Positions 7,442 to 30,433 of a stretch of DNA of 64,000 bases are shown in pieces; the stretch's first letter is position 1, and each line of letters opens with the position of its first letter. Under the pieces are notes generated by a model. It did not search any database. It was not told the DNA's origin and saw only the letters and a program-made list of their open reading frames with translations. Origin of the DNA: Dermabacteraceae bacterium TAE3-ERU27. GTDB lineage: Bacteria; Actinomycetota; Actinomycetes; Actinomycetales; Dermabacteraceae. A program made the translations under genes and the position numbers. The stretch lies in the NCBI GenBank assembly GCA_019218415.1, contig JAHUUL010000001.1:372001-436000 (forward strand), written 5' to 3'.

Positions 7442-8554
7442 GTGGCAAGTGAAATTGAGATCGGCCGAAACAAACGCGCCCGGCGCGCCTACGCTTTCGA
7501 TGATGTAGCAGTGGTGCCCTCCCGCCGCACCCGCGACCCCGAGGACGTCTCGACGTCCTGGCAGGTGGACGCCTACCATTTCGACATTCCCATCTTCGGT
7601 GCGCCGATGGATTCCGTCGTTTCCCCGCAGACGGCTATCCAGCTGGGCCGCATGGGTGGCCTGGGCGTGCTGGATCTGGAGGGGCTGTGGACCCGCTACG
7701 AGGATCCGACCCCGCTGCTGGAAGAAATCACCCGCCTGGCAGATTCGCAGGCCACGGCGCGCCTGCGCGAAATCTACGCGGAGCCGATCAAGCCCGAACT
7801 GATCACCCAGCGCATCAGCGAACTGCGCGAGGCGGGCGTGACCGCCGCCGGTTCGCTTTCGCCCCAGCGCACCCAGGAACACTGGAAGACCGTTGTGGAT
7901 GCGGGCGTGGACCTGTTCTTCATCCGCGGCACCACCGTTTCCGCCGAGCACGTTTCGGGCAACCGCGAGCCGCTTAACCTGAAGCGTTTCATCTACGAAC
8001 TGGACGTGCCCGTGATCGTGGGCGGCTGCGCCACCTACACCGCCGCCCTGCACCTGATGCGCACCGGCGCGGCGGGCGTGCTGGTCGGTTTCGGCGGCGG
8101 CGCGTCCCTCACTACCTGGAAGACCCTCGGCGTGAAGGTGCCGCTCGCCACCGCCATCGCGGACGTGGCCGCCGCCCGCCGCGACTACATGGACGAATCC
8201 GGTGGCCGCTACGTGCACGTGATCGCCGACGGCGGCCTCGGCACCTCCGGTGACCTCGTGAAGGCGATCGCTTGCGGTGCGGACGGCCTGATGATCGGCG
8301 CGGCCCTGGCCCGCGCGGCCGAGGCCCCCGGGCGCGGCTTCCACTGGGGCAGCGAAGCACACCACCCGTCGCTACCGCGCGGCCACCGCGTCCAGGTCGG
8401 CACTGTGGCCCCGCTCGAACAGGTCTTGTTCGGCCCCGGCATGGCGGCCGACGGCACAACCAACCTGGTGGGCGCTCTGCGGCACGCGATGGCCACCACC
8501 GGCTACCTGGACCTCAAGGAGTTCCAGCGCGTTGAGGTGTTAGTTAATTCCTGA
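7442..8554 (+). CDS. guaB3: GuaB3 family IMP dehydrogenase-related protein
   Basis: A 370-aa paralogue of IMPDH of the GuaB3 group, widespread in actinobacteria. It opens with the group's typical EIGRNKRARRAYAFDDVAVVPSRRTRDP. The TIM-barrel core is kept (FGAPMDSVVSP, GGLGVLDLEGLWTRYE, ADGGLGTSGDLVKAIACGAD, MIGAALARAAEAPG). The CBS domains and the canonical catalytic loop GSICTTR of GuaB are absent; instead GGGASLTTWKTLG is seen. Its reaction is therefore less certain than that of GuaB. The start is a leaderless GTG. A strong terminator follows at once, and the accessory block begins after it. Confidence 0.93.
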   Translation: MASEIEIGRNKRARRAYAFDDVAVVPSRRTRDPEDVSTSWQVDAYHFDIPIFGAPMDSVVSPQTAIQLGRMGGLGVLDLEGLWTRYEDPTPLLEEITRLADSQATARLREIYAEPIKPELITQRISELREAGVTAAGSLSPQRTQEHWKTVVDAGVDLFFIRGTTVSAEHVSGNREPLNLKRFIYELDVPVIVGGCATYTAALHLMRTGAAGVLVGFGGGASLTTWKTLGVKVPLATAIADVAAARRDYMDESGGRYVHVIADGGLGTSGDLVKAIACGADGLMIGAALARAAEAPGRGFHWGSEAHHPSLPRGHRVQVGTVAPLEQVLFGPGMAADGTTNLVGALRHAMATTGYLDLKEFQRVEVLVNS

Positions 8555-8620: not shown

Positions 8621-8662
8621 TGCCGCGAGTGCGTTGCACCCTTGCCATCGAATATCTGCGGC
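8621..8662 (+). repeat. Left copy of 42-bp imperfect direct repeat (candidate attachment site)
   Basis: This segment starts 5 bp after the guaB3 terminator and matches 29397-29438 at 37 of 42 positions, with shared blocks TGCCGCGAGTGCGTTG and CTTGCCATCGAATATC. The two copies enclose the whole conjugation block. No integrase gene is seen, so the role as attL is inference. The rest of the gap up to 8741 holds two small hairpins (around 8665-8685 and 8705-8722), possibly the terminator of the minus-strand genes. Confidence 0.45.
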
Positions 8663-19091: not shown

Positions 19092-20896
19092 GTCAGGGAG
19101 CTGGGCGTCAGGATAAGGCACCGTCGTTTTCGAGTTTCGTTTTTGGAAACTTGTTCATCTTCGCTCTACTGGCGGTCACGTTCATTTTCTTGCTGTGGCA
19201 GTTCGCGGTCTGGGTTAGCACCGACGTCGAGTTCATGGACTTCAAGACCACAATGCGGGCCTTGTTCCACGGTGCGCCGGTAGAGGGGCTGCCAGGAGGT
19301 AGCTGGCTGACGCTGTTTATGGCGGGCCTTGAATTGCTAGTCATCATCGGCCTGTTCGTTTTCTTCTTCCTGTATCGGGAAAACCAGCGGCTCTTGCGGC
19401 CGGGGAAGGGCATGGCCAACAAAGCGCAGCATGTTTCCCGGCTGTCGGAGAAGGTTGTGCGGCTTCAGGAAAAGCGCCTGTGGGGCGATGATGCGATGCC
19501 GAAGGACACCAGCAAGGTTGCTTTCGAGGTTGGTCGGGCGGCCTATGGCATGTTTTCGATGGAGCCTGCGTTCGTCTCGCAGGAGACGCACGTTTTGGTG
19601 ATCGCACCGACTGGTGGCGGTAAGACGTACCGGCTGCTGTCACGGGCCGCGTTGGATGCGCCTGGCGCGTTGATCATGACCTCGACTAGGCCGGACATCC
19701 TGGACGTGATCGCTAAGGAGCGGGCCGCGAAGGGCCGCATCTGGGTGTTCGATCTGCTTAACCTGTCTCACTGGCCAACCAAAATGTGCTGGGACATCGT
19801 TGCTGGCTGTGAGGATTCGCAGATCGCCCGTGCGCGGGCAGGCGCGATCGTGAAAAGCGGGAAGAAACAGATCTCTGGTTCGGCTGGTGGCGGGGATGCC
19901 AACACTGAGTTCTTTATGGATAACGCCCGCGACGTTTTGCAGTGCTACCTACACGCGGCCGCGATCGGTGGCCGTAGCGTTCAGGACATCCTGGAATGGG
20001 CGCCCGCGTTCGAGACAGATACCACCGCTCAGCAGATTCTGCGCGATACTCCCGGCGCGGATAAGCATCTGGGGATCAAGCTGAACTCCTTGCGTACCGG
20101 CGCACCAGAAACAGCGGCCTCGATCCGCAATACGCTCGATCAGGCGTTGTCCTCGCTGATGATCTCGAAGATTGCTAACCAGTTCAATCCTGGTGTGAGC
20201 GACGCGGATGCCTTTGACCCGGATGAGTTCGCGCGCTCCAGCGACACGCTGGTGATCATCGCTGACGATAACGATCCCACCGACATCACTAACCTCGCGG
20301 CGATGATGCTGGATGAGACTCTGCGCGCTTGCAAGAACGCAGCGCGTTGCGAAGCAACTGGCCGTCTGACTCCTCCGGTTAGGGCCGTACTGGACGAGGT
20401 TGCCAACGTAGCGCCGCTGCCGAAGCTGCCGGAGATGCTTTCGGATCTGCGCGCCTACGGGGTGCAGATCATCGCGGCCGTGCAGTCTGGCGCGCAGACT
20501 CGGCGCCGCTGGGGCGCGGAGGGCGCCCAAATGTTGATCGACAACTGCGGCGCCCTTTTGATCATGGGCGGCTTGAAGGATCCCAAGGTACTCAAAGACA
20601 TCTCTGATCTAGCCGGTCGGGTGGAAGTCACGGAGCTTTCCACTCAGCTACGCGAGTACGGGATGCACCGTGGCAACCAGACCATGAGCACGCGAGAGAA
20701 GGAGATTCTGCGGCCGGAGGAGATCGCGCAGTTGCGGGATGGGTATGCGCTGCTTGTCACCGGCCGGATTCCGCCCGTGAAGCTGTACCTGCCGGGTTGG
20801 ACTGAACGCCCGGACGGGGATGAGTTGAAGAAGGCCCAGCAGGAGAGCGCACACACTCGCGCGGCTTCGGCTGCTGCTTCGAGAGGAAAAGCATGA
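19088..20896 (+). CDS. VirD4/TraG-type coupling protein
   Basis: A 602-aa protein with two N-terminal transmembrane helices (about residues 18-40 and 75-98), then an ATPase domain with Walker A APTGGGKTYRLL from about residue 173 and TSTRPDIL. Walker B is PPVRAVLDEVANVAPLPKLP. AVQSGAQTRRRWGAEGAQMLIDNC and ITGRI-like LLVTGRIPPVKLYLPGW follow. This is the type IV coupling protein that brings the relaxosome to the channel. I take the ATG at 19088, which overlaps the upstream stop (ATGA); longer in-frame extension is only antisense-like filler. The last four bases overlap the next gene. Confidence 0.92.
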   Translation: MSQGAGRQDKAPSFSSFVFGNLFIFALLAVTFIFLLWQFAVWVSTDVEFMDFKTTMRALFHGAPVEGLPGGSWLTLFMAGLELLVIIGLFVFFFLYRENQRLLRPGKGMANKAQHVSRLSEKVVRLQEKRLWGDDAMPKDTSKVAFEVGRAAYGMFSMEPAFVSQETHVLVIAPTGGGKTYRLLSRAALDAPGALIMTSTRPDILDVIAKERAAKGRIWVFDLLNLSHWPTKMCWDIVAGCEDSQIARARAGAIVKSGKKQISGSAGGGDANTEFFMDNARDVLQCYLHAAAIGGRSVQDILEWAPAFETDTTAQQILRDTPGADKHLGIKLNSLRTGAPETAASIRNTLDQALSSLMISKIANQFNPGVSDADAFDPDEFARSSDTLVIIADDNDPTDITNLAAMMLDETLRACKNAARCEATGRLTPPVRAVLDEVANVAPLPKLPEMLSDLRAYGVQIIAAVQSGAQTRRRWGAEGAQMLIDNCGALLIMGGLKDPKVLKDISDLAGRVEVTELSTQLREYGMHRGNQTMSTREKEILRPEEIAQLRDGYALLVTGRIPPVKLYLPGWTERPDGDELKKAQQESAHTRAASAAASRGKA

Positions 20897-21480
20897 GCGA
20901 CGTTGAAAACCCTCACGTTGAGGATGAGCAGGAGTTTTCCGAGTCCGAGGCATACAGCTACCTGAGCGCGCAGGAGCAGGAGCTGCTGGTTCAGCTAACG
21001 GAGATAACTGCCGAGCATGAGGCACGCATTACCGCGCTGGAAGATAGCGTCGATGAGGACAAGATCCCCAGGGACTGGATCAGCAGGCACCAAAACCCGG
21101 ACGACTGGGAAGAACTAGCGGTGTGGGTGGATTGGCTGAACGACAACTACTCCATGCCCGACGAGATGCGCGTGCCTGCTTGCTGGCCCGCACATCCGGG
21201 CCTGGTGCATGTCCTTGCGGGACTTCGCTCGTCCTGGCGTAACTCGGTGCTCGCGGACATGGCTTCCAAGGAGCGCCAGAACGCGATGGCGGCGTTCCAC
21301 GATTACCACCTGTTCCCGTTCTTCGCGCGTATGCAGCAAAAACAGATGTTCCGCTGCAACGCTAACGGCCACAAGGAAGATGTGCGCCACGCCCCCACGG
21401 ATCGCGCGTACTTCCCGGAGTACCTGTTCGCGCCGCTCGATGAGCCGGAGCCGGAGGAAGAAACACCAGTAACACAATAA
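20893..21480 (+). CDS. DUF4913-like protein
   Basis: A 195-aa acidic cytosolic protein that ends the secretion operon. The region EELAVWVDWLNDNY through CWPAHPGLVHVLAGLRSSWRNSV and FHDYHLFPFFARM matches the DUF4913 pattern, a domain of unknown function often encoded beside the coupling protein in actinobacterial conjugative elements. An acidic, glutamine/glutamate-rich helix precedes it and an acidic tail follows. GAGAGG precedes the ATG, which overlaps the VirD4 stop codon. Its own stop codon lies inside a palindromic repeat (see 21462). Confidence 0.75.
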   Translation: MSDVENPHVEDEQEFSESEAYSYLSAQEQELLVQLTEITAEHEARITALEDSVDEDKIPRDWISRHQNPDDWEELAVWVDWLNDNYSMPDEMRVPACWPAHPGLVHVLAGLRSSWRNSVLADMASKERQNAMAAFHDYHLFPFFARMQQKQMFRCNANGHKEDVRHAPTDRAYFPEYLFAPLDEPEPEEETPVTQ

Positions 21481-21512
21481 ACACCAGTAACACTGTTGTT
21501 AATCGTGTTTGC
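21462..21512. repeat. Boundary repeat R1 (AACACCAGTAACAC family)
   Basis: It contains AACACCAGTAACACAAT twice in tandem, then GTTGTTAATCGTGTT, which forms an imperfect palindrome with the second copy (11 of 14 positions). It overlaps the stop codon of the DUF4913 gene. Near-identical sequence occurs at 22733, and related palindromes at 25492, 27284 and 30397. Confidence 0.7.
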
Positions 21513-21521
21513 TGCCCCCTC

Positions 21522-21551
21522 TTGCCATGCGAGCGTTGGAGTGTTTACAAT
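21522..21551 (+). promoter_or_regulatory. Promoter of candidate small RNA, copy 1
   Basis: TTGCCA, an 18-nt spacer and TACAAT, close to the sigma-A consensus. The same elements at the same spacing occur at 22792. The expected transcription start is about 21558. Confidence 0.6.
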
Positions 21552-21556
21552 CTAAA

Positions 21557-21690
21557 TGCAGCAACTGCAAGCGGGTTGTTACCTTACCTTGGGGCCGCGG
21601 GGCAATTGTGTCGCAACACTATGGACACTCAACCGCGGTGCTGCATATAACTTGTGAAAACCCCCGGCCTTATGGTCGGGGGTTTTCGCT
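21557..21690 (+). ncRNA. Candidate small RNA, copy 1
   Basis: A promoter-to-terminator unit of about 130 nt. The ends close by a perfect 7-bp stem (TGCAGCA at 21557, TGCTGCA at 21639). An inner GCGGGT/ACCGC pairing and a variable internal hairpin (GTGTC with GACAC) follow. A 13-bp terminator stem with TTAT loop and TTTT ends it at 21657-21686. The copy at 22827 keeps the stem, the CTTACCTTGGGG segment and the terminator, while its internal hairpin differs in sequence but can still fold. A short frame (MRALECLQSKCSNCKR...) crosses the start but diverges between copies. It converges on the DUF3800-like gene. Confidence 0.5.
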
Positions 21691-21694
21691 ATCC

Positions 21695-22651
21695 TCACCT
21701 GCTCTGCGTGGGGCCTTCGCGCCTGGTCACGGGAGGCGCAATGGGGCGAGCTAGGTTACGGGCGGGCGGCTGTGTGTTGCTGCCTCTTTTCGCGGCGCTG
21801 TCCCTGCGGGCTTTTTCCAGTTTTTCCTTTGCCTGCCTAATCCTGGCTTGCATGTCCAATACCGGCGGCCGCCGATCCTGATTCGCCCTTCGCACTGCTT
21901 CCGGTTTCACCACTGGAGGCACATTCAGCCCAGTGCGAGCATATGCGTGGTGAAGGTTAGGGGTCATCGGGGCGATAAATCGTGAGTCGTTTTCCTTCCA
22001 GCCGAACTCGCTGCGCTGGATGGCCCAAGCCACGGTGTCGGCTGACCAGAGTGCGTGTTCTTCACCCATGCGTGCATGGTGCATCCACATATCCGCATCT
22101 ACGCTTTTATTCCATTGCAGATCGGTAAGGATCTCTCTGTCAGCCTCTACGTTGTGCTTTAGACGTGTAGGGAAAGCATCTAAAACGACATCTCTAATAC
22201 CCTCGTCGTTGAGGTGTTTTAGCGTGCTGCGCAGAACGTAGTCGCGCATCTTTCGCTCATCGGCTTCCTGCGCGAGATCACCCTTTTTCAGATCGAAAAC
22301 AACGATGGGTTTCGCGGCCTTCTCGTTGATGTAGTCGGCCATCCGCACGATGTTTTCTCTACGCCTGGGGCTTTTATAGTCTTCTTTCGCGTGCCAGGTC
22401 TTCCCCTCCGCGATCTCCTCCAAGTCCCGCCTGACCTGCGGCAGGTCATCGGCGTGGAAGATAACCGCGCTGAGGCCGTAGTAGCTGAGTTCGCCCCGAT
22501 CCGTGGTTCGGTGCGTCTCGTCGATGAACGCAACCAGATCGCCTTTGTGCGCGTAGCGATCAACCAGTACCTCATCTAGCAACCCACTTTCCCGGTGAGC
22601 TTGCATCGCGGCGGTGATCTCGCTCTGCGCGCGTGGGTCGTTGGTAGTCAT
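21695..22651 (-). CDS. DUF3800-like protein, copy 1
   Basis: A 318-aa protein. Residues about 35-215 look like a DUF3800 domain, an RNase H-like fold of unproven nuclease activity. The acidic strand LVAFIDETH begins it, then YYGLSAVIFHADDL, KPIVVFDLKKGD, RDYVLRSTLKHLND, IRDVVLDAF and a late LWSADTVAWA. The C-terminal 100 residues are basic and Pro/Arg-rich with a short coiled coil. It is about two-thirds identical by eye to the protein at 22966, and its flanks are also duplicated. Upstream of its ATG lies a 40-bp exact copy of the end of the 23928 gene. Function unknown. Confidence 0.72.
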   Translation of the reverse strand: MTTNDPRAQSEITAAMQAHRESGLLDEVLVDRYAHKGDLVAFIDETHRTTDRGELSYYGLSAVIFHADDLPQVRRDLEEIAEGKTWHAKEDYKSPRRRENIVRMADYINEKAAKPIVVFDLKKGDLAQEADERKMRDYVLRSTLKHLNDEGIRDVVLDAFPTRLKHNVEADREILTDLQWNKSVDADMWMHHARMGEEHALWSADTVAWAIQRSEFGWKENDSRFIAPMTPNLHHAYARTGLNVPPVVKPEAVRRANQDRRPPVLDMQARIRQAKEKLEKARRDSAAKRGSNTQPPARNLARPIAPPVTRREGPTQSR

Positions 22652-22691
22652 TACAGGCGGGGGCCTCTCGGTCGGTACTGATCAGCCGACT
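22652..22691 (+). repeat. 40-bp exact repeat marking a tandem duplication
   Basis: It is identical to 23929-23968, where it encodes the last 13 codons of the relaxase-tail gene. Here it stands as a non-coding remnant before DUF3800 copy 1, fixing the right edge of the duplicated unit. The next 41 bp (22692-22732) are unique. Confidence 0.9.
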
Positions 22692-22732
22692 AGAGTGCCG
22701 GACCATAACGACAAGATTCTACGCACCCCACC

Positions 22733-22783
22733 CACACCAGTAACACAATAAACACCAGTAACACTGTTGTTAATCGTGTTTGC
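22733..22783. repeat. Boundary repeat R2 (AACACCAGTAACAC family)
   Basis: Essentially the same sequence as R1 at 21462, including the tandem AACACCAGTAACAC and the palindromic partner GTTGTTAATCGTGTT. It starts the second duplicated unit. Confidence 0.75.
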
Positions 22784-22791
22784 CGTTTCTC

Positions 22792-22821
22792 TTGCCATGC
22801 GAGCGTTGGAGTGTTTACAAT
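22792..22821 (+). promoter_or_regulatory. Promoter of candidate small RNA, copy 2
   Basis: TTGCCA, 18-nt spacer, TACAAT, identical to copy 1 at 21522. Confidence 0.6.
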
Positions 22822-22826
22822 CTAAG

Positions 22827-22957
22827 TGCAGCAACTGCAAGCGGGTGTTTACCTTACCTTGGGGCTGCGGGGAAGCATGTCGCGCAGTACTAGGGCGACT
22901 GAACCGCGGTGCTGCATATAACTTGTGAAGACCCCCGGCCTTATGGTCGGGGCTTTT
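22827..22957 (+). ncRNA. Candidate small RNA, copy 2
   Basis: The same layout as copy 1. A closing stem TGCAGCA (22827)/TGCTGCA (22910) is followed by a conserved TTACCTTACCTTGGGGC segment, then an internal hairpin GTCGC/GCGAC in place of GTGTC/GACAC. The terminator stem (ACCCCCGGCC, TTAT loop, GGTCGGGGCT) ends with TTTT. The small frame seen in copy 1 has a different C-terminus here, which argues for RNA rather than protein conservation. Confidence 0.5.
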
Positions 22958-22965
22958 CGCTATCC

Positions 22966-23928
22966 TCACCTGCTCTGTGTGGGGCCTTCGCGCCTGGTCG
23001 TGGGAGGTGTGATGGGGCGGGCGGGAGACTGCGTGTTGACGCCTCTTTTCACGGCGCTATCCCTGCGGGCTTTTTCCAGTTTTTCCTTTGCCTCCCTTGC
23101 CTGCCTAATCCTGGTAGGCATATCGAATATGGGCGGCCGCCGCTTCTGGTTTGCCTCTCGCACTGCTTCCGGTTGCACCACTGGGGGCACTTTCAGCCCA
23201 GTCCTAGCTTGCATGTGATGCAAGTTCGGGGCCAGCGGAGCAATAAACCGTGAATCTCCCTCACGCTTTCCAAGCTCGCTACGCTGGGCAGCCCAAACTA
23301 CGGTATCCGCTGCCCATAGAGCGTGTTCCTTCCGCATTTGCGCGTGATGTATCCACATGTCTGCATCCACGCTTCCATCCCACTGGAGTCTGGTCAGAAT
23401 CGCTTTGTCAGCCTCCACATTGTGGCTTAACGCCTTCGGGAAAGTATCTAGAACGACATCCCTGATGCCCTCATCGTTGAGGTGCTTTAGCATGCTACGC
23501 AGAACGTAGTCACGCATCTTTCGCTCATCGGCGCCCTCGGACAGTTCACCCTTTTTCAGATCGAAGACAACGATGGGTTTCGCGGCTTTTTCATTGATGT
23601 ACGCCGCCATCCGCTCAATGTCGTCTTTCCTTTTCTGACCAGGACGCCGAAACTCATCTTTGGCATGCCAGTAGCCACGTCCCGAGATCGCCTCCAGCTC
23701 TTTTCTAATCTCGGGGAGGTTATCGGCGTGGAAGATAACCGCGCTGAGGCCGTAGTAGGTAACTTCGCCGCCATCCGTGCTTGGATGTGTCTCGTCGATG
23801 AACGCAACCAAATCCGGCACGTGTGAGTAGCGGGTTAGCAGGGTCTCGTCCAGGAGCCCGCTCGCCAGGTGCTCATTTCGCCAGTGGGCTAGTTCTTCTG
23901 GCGTTCTCAGCGGGGGCAGATCACTCAT
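22966..23928 (-). CDS. DUF3800-like protein, copy 2
   Basis: A 320-aa paralogue of the protein at 21695. It has the same blocks: LVAFIDETH, YYGLSAVIFHADNL, KPIVVFDLKKGE, RDYVLRSMLKHLNDEGIRDVVLDTF, a late LWAADTVVWAAQRSE and a basic Pro-rich tail ending in TRREGPTQSR, as in copy 1. The ATG overlaps the TAA of the relaxase-tail gene (TAATG), so it is probably translated from the ArdC/relaxase-remnant transcript. This copy is in the likely original setting. A catalytic set of acidic residues cannot be fixed by eye. Confidence 0.72.
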   Translation of the reverse strand: MSDLPPLRTPEELAHWRNEHLASGLLDETLLTRYSHVPDLVAFIDETHPSTDGGEVTYYGLSAVIFHADNLPEIRKELEAISGRGYWHAKDEFRRPGQKRKDDIERMAAYINEKAAKPIVVFDLKKGELSEGADERKMRDYVLRSMLKHLNDEGIRDVVLDTFPKALSHNVEADKAILTRLQWDGSVDADMWIHHAQMRKEHALWAADTVVWAAQRSELGKREGDSRFIAPLAPNLHHMQARTGLKVPPVVQPEAVREANQKRRPPIFDMPTRIRQAREAKEKLEKARRDSAVKRGVNTQSPARPITPPTTRREGPTQSR

Positions 23929-24518
23929 TACAGGCGGGGGCCTCTCGGTCGGTACTGATCAGCCGACTGCTGCACGCCGGGACGTACTGGACGGTCTGGC
24001 TCGCGCACAGGAACTTCGCCTCGGCTTTCGCGCTGCTGCTTTAGCCGCTTGAGACTTTCTTCCATCCTGGCCGAGGCAGCTCGCGCCCGGACGGGATCCT
24101 GCGTGCGTGTCGGTGCCAATAGTCTATGGACTTCTCGCAGTGATTCGCGCTGCTGCTCCCTGACCTCGCTTTCTGTAGGCAGCGCCCGGTGAGGCAGCGT
24201 GAAGGAGTTGATCTCGCGCCAGGCATTCACCTGAGCGGCACGGGCTTCCCACTCGGCGCGCTCTTTGGTGCCAGGTTTTGGAAGCGGGCCTAGCTCCCTG
24301 CTCCATGCGGGCCGTTCCAAAGCGATAGCGGCGCCGTCACGGCGCAGGCGATCGCGCAGCATCTCGCGGCGCTTAGCCAGCGGTGCCCTCCAGCTCTCGG
24401 GCATCCGGGGATCGCTCATCCCGCGCTCGGGGATAAGCCATAGCGGAATGTCATCCACAGCAGGCTTAACGGCCTGATCCGGTTCCACAGCCCGGTATTT
24501 CACTTCGGCCTGGATCAT
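23928..24518 (-). CDS. C-terminal relaxase remnant (MobF-type tail), free-standing
   Basis: A 196-aa basic protein. The middle part (SWRAPLAKRREMLRDRL, ERPAWSRELGPLPKPG, ERAEWEARAAQVNAWRE) fits the pattern seen near the C-terminus of actinobacterial TrwC/TraA relaxases, where a W-x2-LG-x2-P-x-D block is followed by W-x3-A-x2-V-x2-YR. The relaxase catalytic domain with its tyrosine and three histidines, and the helicase domain, are absent. I infer a remnant left after deletion, now in an operon with the truncated ArdC and a DUF3800-like gene. The ATG at 24518 has only a weak ribosome binding site. Confidence 0.6.
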   Translation of the reverse strand: MIQAEVKYRAVEPDQAVKPAVDDIPLWLIPERGMSDPRMPESWRAPLAKRREMLRDRLRRDGAAIALERPAWSRELGPLPKPGTKERAEWEARAAQVNAWREINSFTLPHRALPTESEVREQQRESLREVHRLLAPTRTQDPVRARAASARMEESLKRLKQQRESRGEVPVREPDRPVRPGVQQSADQYRPRGPRL

Positions 24519-24530
24519 GCCGTCTATGAC

Positions 24531-24674
24531 CTAGGCGCGCTGCAAGGAGGCTTCTGCCTGTTCCAGCGCCAGGATGTTTGCCGCCCGGTGTCGGACATAC
24601 TCCTGATTGCTTTCGCCTCGCTGTTGGTGGGCTTGCCGCTGGGTTTCCTCCAGGCAGTAGTCCCGTTTGCTCAT
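24531..24674 (-). CDS. Short 47-aa ORF between ArdC fragment and relaxase tail
   Basis: It runs MSKRDYCLEETQRQAHQQRG... to LEQAEASLQRA and is rich in Gln, Glu and Ala, predicted helical. Its ATG overlaps the ArdC-fragment stop codon (ATGA) and it ends 12 bp before the relaxase-tail ATG, so it is plausibly translated by coupling. It may itself be residual relaxase coding sequence (a helical linker). No family recognised. Confidence 0.4.
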   Translation of the reverse strand: MSKRDYCLEETQRQAHQQRGESNQEYVRHRAANILALEQAEASLQRA

Positions 24675-25297
24675 AGCGCGGCGGTTTCGTGGATGAGGGT
24701 TTTCAGGGCTTGCTTGGGGGAGAGACTTTCGTCGATCACGATTTTCTTGTCTCCTTTGGTGGTGGTGTAGCCGTTAGCAGCTCCGGGGATTTCCTGCTCG
24801 GTGACTGTCCATCCTTTGCTGCGAAGCATCTGTTTGATGGTGTCTGCGAGTCCTTCGGGCGCTTCCCCCTGGAGATGCTGGGCCAGTGTGGGCACTTCCT
24901 CCGCTTTGTCGGGATCAACGATGTCGGTTTGGGAGATGTCGAAGACGCTAACCGGGAAAAACTTGCGGAATTTTATGGGGGTTCCTTCTTCCTTGTCTTC
25001 GTCTGCGGTGATGTCGATTAGTCGGCTGCCGAAGATTCGGATGCCTTTTTCTCCTTTGCGTACCTGGCGGCCACGGGAGCGCCATGACTGGTATCCCGCG
25101 ACGTAGGTCGCATAGGGTTTCTGAGCTTGGATTAGCAGCATGTTGTTGAAGCTGTAGCGGTAGAAAGTGGCGGCGAAGGCGAGGAACTTTTCCCAATCGA
25201 CTTCGCTGTGCAGCGCTTCGACTCGTTCCGCGATCGTCTTTTGTAGGGCCTCGATTTCGTCCTGGCGGGCCTGGGGGTTGATTCGTTTACGTGCCAT
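24671..25297 (-). CDS. ArdC-like antirestriction protein, truncated at the zinc motif
   Basis: A 208-aa protein matching the N-terminal ssDNA-binding domain of ArdC: FLAFAATFYRYSFNNMLLIQAQKPYATYVAGYQSWRSRGRQVRKGEKGIRI, then FFPVSVFDISQTD. In full-length ArdC a metallopeptidase domain begins with HETAHA; here the chain reaches LIHETAAL and stops, so the second zinc histidine and everything after it are missing. It would therefore be a DNA-binding fragment without peptidase activity. ArdC proteins protect incoming DNA from restriction during conjugation. It is the first gene of a minus-strand operon, with three hairpins upstream. Confidence 0.8.
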   Translation of the reverse strand: MARKRINPQARQDEIEALQKTIAERVEALHSEVDWEKFLAFAATFYRYSFNNMLLIQAQKPYATYVAGYQSWRSRGRQVRKGEKGIRIFGSRLIDITADEDKEEGTPIKFRKFFPVSVFDISQTDIVDPDKAEEVPTLAQHLQGEAPEGLADTIKQMLRSKGWTVTEQEIPGAANGYTTTKGDKKIVIDESLSPKQALKTLIHETAAL

Positions 25298-25491: not shown

Positions 25492-25530
25492 AACACCAGT
25501 AACACAACTAACGCTTGCGTTACTAGTGTT
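25492..25530. repeat. Boundary repeat R3
   Basis: AACACCAGTAACACAACTAACGC followed by TTGCGTTACTAGTGTT. The outer arms AACACCAGTAAC/GTTACTAGTGTT pair with one mismatch and the inner AACGC-TT-GCGTT pairs perfectly. It belongs to the same family as R1, R2, R4 and R5. Confidence 0.7.
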
Positions 25531-27283: not shown

Positions 27284-27328
27284 AATTAACGCCGGTGACA
27301 CAATTAACACTTGTGTTACCGGCGTTAG
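27284..27328. repeat. Boundary repeat R4, near-perfect hairpin
   Basis: The arms TTAACGCCGGTGACACAA and TTGTGTTACCGGCGTTAG pair at 16 of 18 positions with a 7-nt loop. The stop codon of the minus-strand pseudogene at 27325 lies in the right arm. There is no T-run on either side, so a plain terminator is unlikely. Confidence 0.75.
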
Positions 27329-29396: not shown

Positions 29397-29438
29397 TGCC
29401 GCGAGTGCGTTGTGCTCTTGCCATCGAATATCCGTGGC
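29397..29438 (+). repeat. Right copy of 42-bp imperfect direct repeat (candidate attachment site)
   Basis: It matches 8621-8662 at 37 of 42 positions in the same orientation. It lies in the 370-bp gap 29170-29539, which otherwise has no supported gene. If this is attR, the mobile unit is 20.8 kb and the genes from 29540 to 32000 belong to a second accessory segment. Confidence 0.45.
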
Positions 29439-30396: not shown

Positions 30397-30433
30397 AACA
30401 CGATTAACGCCATTAACACAATCAACACTTGTG
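30397..30433. repeat. Boundary repeat R5 (degenerate)
   Basis: AACACGATTAACGCC and TTAACACAATCAACACTTGTG repeat the core of R3/R4 (ACACAAYTAACRCTTG) and the right arm of R1/R2 read on the opposite strand (AACACGATTAACA). It is less palindromic than the others. It sits between the divergent genes at 29654 and 30605. Confidence 0.55.

Follow-up and report, generated by a model that had tools for sequence, protein, structure and literature searches.

A conserved three-way-junction RNA converging on DUF3800-like genes in tandem units of a degenerate conjugative element

The window, i.e., the entire 64-kb stretch of DNA which was analysed, harbors two tandem units, each with a small RNA that converges on a DUF3800-like gene. 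According to comparative sequence evidence this is a conserved structured RNA with promoter and terminator signals of its own. The RNA most likely serves the RNase H-fold protein encoded next to it as cognate ligand. The reading in full, i.e., two alleles of a small RNA plus DUF3800-like gene positioned side by side on a degenerate conjugative element with the RNA as the ligand of the protein, has in our judgement about an even chance of being correct.

A first-pass annotation had claimed two units in a head-to-tail arrangement. They are real, and the start-to-start spacing in the window is 1,268-1,277 bp. Each unit comprises a 50-bp repeat, a promoter, the small RNA with its terminator and the converging DUF3800-like gene. 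The features are:

20893-21480, plus strand: last gene of the tra operon, on the converging side; 59-61% to its counterpart in two Brachybacterium plasmids
21463-21512, plus strand: upstream repeat of unit 1; two ACACCAGTAACAC boxes and the palindrome AACACTGTTGTTAATCGTGTT, operator-like
21522-21551, plus strand: promoter of RNA 1, TTGCCA-18-TACAAT
21557-21646, plus strand: RNA 1, three-way-junction core, from folding and covariance model
21654-21689, plus strand: intrinsic terminator hairpin of RNA 1, from folding
21695-22651, minus strand: DUF3800-like gene 1, 318 aa
22648-22691, minus strand: MobF 3'-end remnant before gene 1, 44 bp, identical to 23925-23968; duplication scar
22734-22783, plus strand: upstream repeat of unit 2, 50 bp
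22792-22821, plus strand: promoter of RNA 2, TTGCCA-18-TACAAT
22827-22917, plus strand: RNA 2, three-way-junction core, from folding and covariance model
22925-22960, plus strand: intrinsic terminator hairpin of RNA 2, from folding
22966-23928, minus strand: DUF3800-like gene 2, 320 aa; its start codon and the stop codon of the MobF remnant overlap (TAATGA)
23928-24518, minus strand: remnant of a MobF-type relaxase, comprising 196 aa of the C-terminus; 48% to the C-terminal region of mobF on two Brachybacterium plasmids

The TTGCCA-18-TACAAT promoter noted earlier was located in both units. The upstream repeat, previously described as palindromic, is also present in both, but it is more complex than a palindrome and contains ACACCAGTAACAC boxes besides. 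This 13-mer has five exact occurrences in the window; 0.5 matches are expected even when up to 2 mismatches are allowed. Boxes of this type are positioned at 21463-21512, 22734-22783, 25493-25529, 27298-27325 and 30407-30419, some as inverted pairs; the copies at 27298 and 30407 are looser matches. The recurring boxes look like operator sites of a single element-encoded regulator.

The edges of the units and their genes present different pictures. The upstream repeats (21463-21512 and 22734-22783, 50 bp) are 100% identical and so are 44 bp across the gene starts (22648-22691 and 23925-23968), whereas the coding parts are only about 75-78% identical. Compared copy against copy, the two DUF3800-like genes have a pS of 0.50, a pN of 0.18 and a dN/dS of 0.25; both are under purifying selection. 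Identical edges next to strongly diverged genes point less to simple drift after a duplication than to recombination between diverged alleles or, alternatively, a homogenisation of the edges. The 44-bp edge corresponds to the 3' end of a gene for a MobF-type relaxase, hence the tandem unit arose beside a relaxase.

The host of the units is a degenerate MOBF/T4SS conjugative element. A full-length relaxase was not seen in it; as only the C-terminal MobF remnant (23928-24518) is left, the element in the window is probably not self-transmissible. The remnant is adjoined by a gene for an anti-restriction-type protein with an ArdC N-terminal domain (24671-25297; Pfam ArdcN, E 8e-13). Around the tra region a 42-nt direct repeat (88%) occurs at 8621-8662 and 29397-29438, about 20.8 kb apart, the first copy just downstream of an IMP-dehydrogenase-like gene (7442-8554). 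The 42-nt repeats are candidate attachment sites bounding an integrated element; no integrase was identified between them.

The RNA core of about 90 nt is a conserved three-way junction, consisting of a closing stem and two arms. Folding z-scores, terminator included, are -6.7 for RNA 1 and -4.4 for RNA 2. Tandem copies share descent, so two copies alone are weak evidence, and a duplicated spacer with a terminator might mimic a structured RNA by chance. Covariance model R1 was built exclusively from seven Brachybacterium copies, the window copies being excluded. It finds both window RNAs (E 1.1e-6 and 1.6e-6) and nothing else in the 64 kb. In an alignment of ten sequences, double changes are seen at 14 of 30 base pairs, and 29 cells with compensatory changes compare to 6.9 in shuffles, a count reached in none of 500. 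This alignment was fitted to the model, which biases the covariation counts in favour of the structure. In these ten sequences 98.6% of the cells are paired; sliding the structure by 1-3 columns reduces this to 40-48%. Minimum-energy folds, which are independent of the model, agree for most sequences. In nine out of ten homologues a TAnnnT hexamer precedes the closing stem by 5-6 nt; its position places the predicted 5' end of the transcript at the closing stem. Independent homologues with covariation and a conserved -10 position refute chance folding of two related copies as far as the structure is concerned, and a mere spacer devoid of a functional RNA is exceedingly improbable.

Selection on RNA structure, which had been proposed from the two copies, thus has strong and independent support in the R1 matches and the covariation. 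The short peptide frame, earlier said not to be kept, is disrupted by one-base insertions in the copies of G037 and G036a, and a peptide reading is discarded. Most copies have a promoter and a terminator; at some chromosomal copies terminators are weak or absent. The arms fall into types: a nearly identical apical hairpin is shared by window RNA 2 and the second chromosomal copy in the Brachybacterium genome G036, and the other Brachybacterium copies carry another type.

A search of the plasmid relatives for the closing-stem motif uncovered the same RNA on two Brachybacterium plasmids, where it is flanked by the tra operon and the DUF3800-like gene. Wider searches yielded more copies in Brachybacterium genomes. 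We scanned 396 genomes belonging to the order and 395 to the class, using a prefilter by which diverged copies can be lost and with which R1 missed the window's own copies; convincing matches came from Brachybacterium and the genome of the window alone. A single match outside these (G105) has an E of 0.006. Phages and viral contigs held no relatives of protein or RNA, and the best score among 27 viral contigs fitting the RNA consensus pattern was E 0.13; a phage or viral origin was rejected.

The window proteins (318 and 320 aa) are 71-72% identical to each other. Their relatives are encoded on actinobacterial plasmids (55% for B. avium, 25-32% for others). Both score below the Pfam gathering threshold for DUF3800 (PF12686), and no family was reached in Pfam, NCBIfam, PADLOC or PHROGs. 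PF12686 matches weakly in 4 out of 17 aligned relatives, at best with E 0.0048. In a profile comparison with seven DUF3800 proteins which are Pfam-positive and come from related genomes, hhalign gives a probability of 93% (E 3e-7, 170 columns). The earlier label DUF3800-like is thus right in the sense of remote homology, for genes below the Pfam cut-off. The RNase H-like fold, previously ascribed to DUF3800 as such, reappears in an AlphaFold model of low confidence (three sequences, mean pLDDT 60), whose best matches in the PDB are to RNase HII (E 5.6e-6). Across 17 relatives D44, H87, R136 and D171 are invariant, E45 and D205 nearly so; D44, E45, D158 and D205 are present in both window proteins. 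With the modest confidence which the model permits, the acidic residues match the RNase H-like pattern, i.e., strand 1, a later strand and the last helix. Taken together, the window proteins are remote DUF3800 relatives with a predicted RNase H-like fold.

How tightly are RNA and gene linked? The order relaxase, DUF3800-like gene, converging RNA and tra operon prevails on the B. avium plasmid NZ_CP022318 and on a B. massiliense plasmid. A close DUF3800-like gene was found in three genomes (G000, G003, G014), and in all three the RNA is immediately beside it. The two Brachybacterium plasmids are close relatives, hence the firmly independent adjacencies amount to two lineages and, tentatively, genus g12. 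In g12 a 93-nt element resides in the 3' end of a DUF3800-like gene; the sub-threshold matches (weak model score, E 0.04-0.08, 25 loci) all fall at this one place. The element has 0-1 synonymous changes in 24-31 codons compared to 8-15 in 37-46 codons upstream. In G381 a second copy follows the stop codon (L035 7597-7692 and 7840-7935), and the element is also present in L032, L033 and L034. It has no match in Rfam. Likely, it is a distant relative or a functional analogue of the window RNA.

The situation changes with the orphan RNAs. Six copies are in five Brachybacterium genomes (G005, G008, G013, two in G036, and G037), in unrelated neighbourhoods. No DUF3800-like gene lies within about 9 kb of them (in G037 the end of the contig limits one side to about 5.7 kb), and none was detectable by P0001 in these five genomes. 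In G008 the RNA is flanked by one gene of the HAD type and one of the alcohol-dehydrogenase type. The corresponding gap measures about 5-26 bp in several relatives, so the G008 RNA is an RNA-only insert of approximately 0.2 kb. The insert (L074 12516-12755) has no obvious terminal repeats or target duplication. As related chromosomes carry the RNA alone, it evidently travels without its gene. Conversely, the plasmid-borne DUF3800-like genes of Cellulosimicrobium, Arthrobacter, Paenarthrobacter, Gordonia and Miniimonas have no detectable RNA. The first-pass annotation had named loci with the gene kept and the RNA absent as evidence against its proposal, and exactly this is seen in distant DUF3800-like relatives. 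Of the two-part module it proposed, the kept order on two Brachybacterium plasmids stands, but at least six RNAs are alone in chromosomes. The link between RNA and gene is not obligatory.

These data also accommodate a stand-alone regulatory or decoy RNA which binds a host factor and is carried beside the gene because the gap between relaxase and tra genes is convenient. Because of the orphan copies this remains a serious rival: they are dispersed over five Brachybacterium genomes in unrelated surroundings, G008 has an RNA-only insert, most copies possess their own promoter and terminator, and most distant DUF3800-like genes have no RNA alongside. Yet the RNA is beside the gene in each of G000, G003 and G014, known DUF3800 RNAs have the same geometry, and the DUF3800-like genes of g12 hold a constrained, similarly folded element. 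We consider a stand-alone RNA possible, at somewhat less than an even chance.

We return to the RNA as ligand of the protein. The RNA would bind the RNase H-fold protein, and the resulting ribonucleoprotein would restrain or direct the protein. The conserved junction might bind the protein, and specificity might be conferred by the arms, which vary but still pair. A benefit might lie in plasmid maintenance, exclusion or defence. The two tandem copies would then represent two specificities joined by recombination, and the chromosomal RNA-only copies would be orphan ligands which could act in trans. A variant, which we regard as improbable, puts the emphasis on the RNA: an independently spreading RNA-only cassette, in which units on plasmids seed chromosomal orphans; acting in trans, these would oppose or assist the plasmid-borne RNase H-fold protein, the arms defining specificity groups. 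Such a cassette might be an anti-addiction or a trans-mobilised RNA element.

A special case of the ligand reading is an addiction module, in which a toxic RNase H-fold protein would be neutralised by the RNA and the orphan RNAs would be anti-addiction antidotes. A position of the pair directly after the relaxase on conjugative elements, two diverged copies which are both under purifying selection, and orphan RNAs in relatives without the gene would all be compatible with addiction. On the other hand, no PADLOC model matched above noise, the RNA does not have the tandem repeats of type III antitoxins, and distant genes manage without an obvious RNA. We regard addiction as an unlikely form of the ligand relationship.

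This work adds a structured RNA family missing from Rfam, a clade of DUF3800-like genes linked to conjugative relaxases, and two natural allelic pairs side by side together with solitary chromosomal RNAs. The natural pairs and the orphans allow tests of RNA-protein pairing and of the effect of an orphan RNA on an incoming plasmid.

Two known systems invite comparison. The ToxIN-type (type III) toxin-antitoxin systems resemble the window as an idea, a structured RNA and a nuclease on mobile elements. Their RNAs are tandem repeats, whereas here each RNA is a single three-way-junction unit. Their nuclease has a ToxN-like fold, which differs from the RNase H-like fold, whereas the model of the window protein is RNase HII-like. 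The combination of a tandem-repeat RNA with a ToxN-like nuclease, by which type III systems are recognised, is not found here. A structured RNA adjoining a DUF3800-type gene, the mark of DUF3800-associated RNAs, is found in the window and on the two Brachybacterium plasmids.

The first description of DUF3800-associated RNA motifs is reportedly that of Weinberg and colleagues (2017). The FLSHclust paper independently reports an association of DUF3800 with ncRNA, and an RNase H fold whose catalytic residues are rearranged (PMC10910872). No source which we found gives a function for the DUF3800-associated RNAs in Rfam. None of the Rfam families, DUF3800-I to -XI included, reached its gathering score in the window. 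The best permissive match, rnk_pseudo (E 0.29), is mostly over the terminator, and an Rfam identity was rejected. Known Rfam DUF3800 RNAs are detected when cmscan is applied, as a positive control, to DUF3800 loci of related genomes. In the same bacterial order a DUF3800-IX RNA (L042 1322-1391) converges on and abuts a DUF3800 gene, meeting its 3' end as in the window; a DUF3800-XI RNA (L045 2113-2161) is upstream of another DUF3800 gene, in a geometry different from that of L042. DUF3800-IX (RF02968) also shares with the window RNA a three-way junction and, at this junction, the motif AACUG. It differs in length (67 nt versus about 90), the window RNA has no sequence match to the Rfam model, and model R2 does not find the DUF3800-IX RNA of L042. 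Its partner is a canonical DUF3800 protein, whereas the window protein is below the Pfam cut-off. More generally, DUF3800-I to -XI are, like the window RNA, small RNAs beside DUF3800 genes and differ from it in RNA sequence and detail of the fold. Solitary RNA copies and a relaxase-coupled gene are features seen in the present family. Since DUF3800-IX likewise converges on a DUF3800 gene, the window RNA is, judged by its predicted fold and gene arrangement, a new relative of the DUF3800-associated small RNAs, from a family absent from Rfam.
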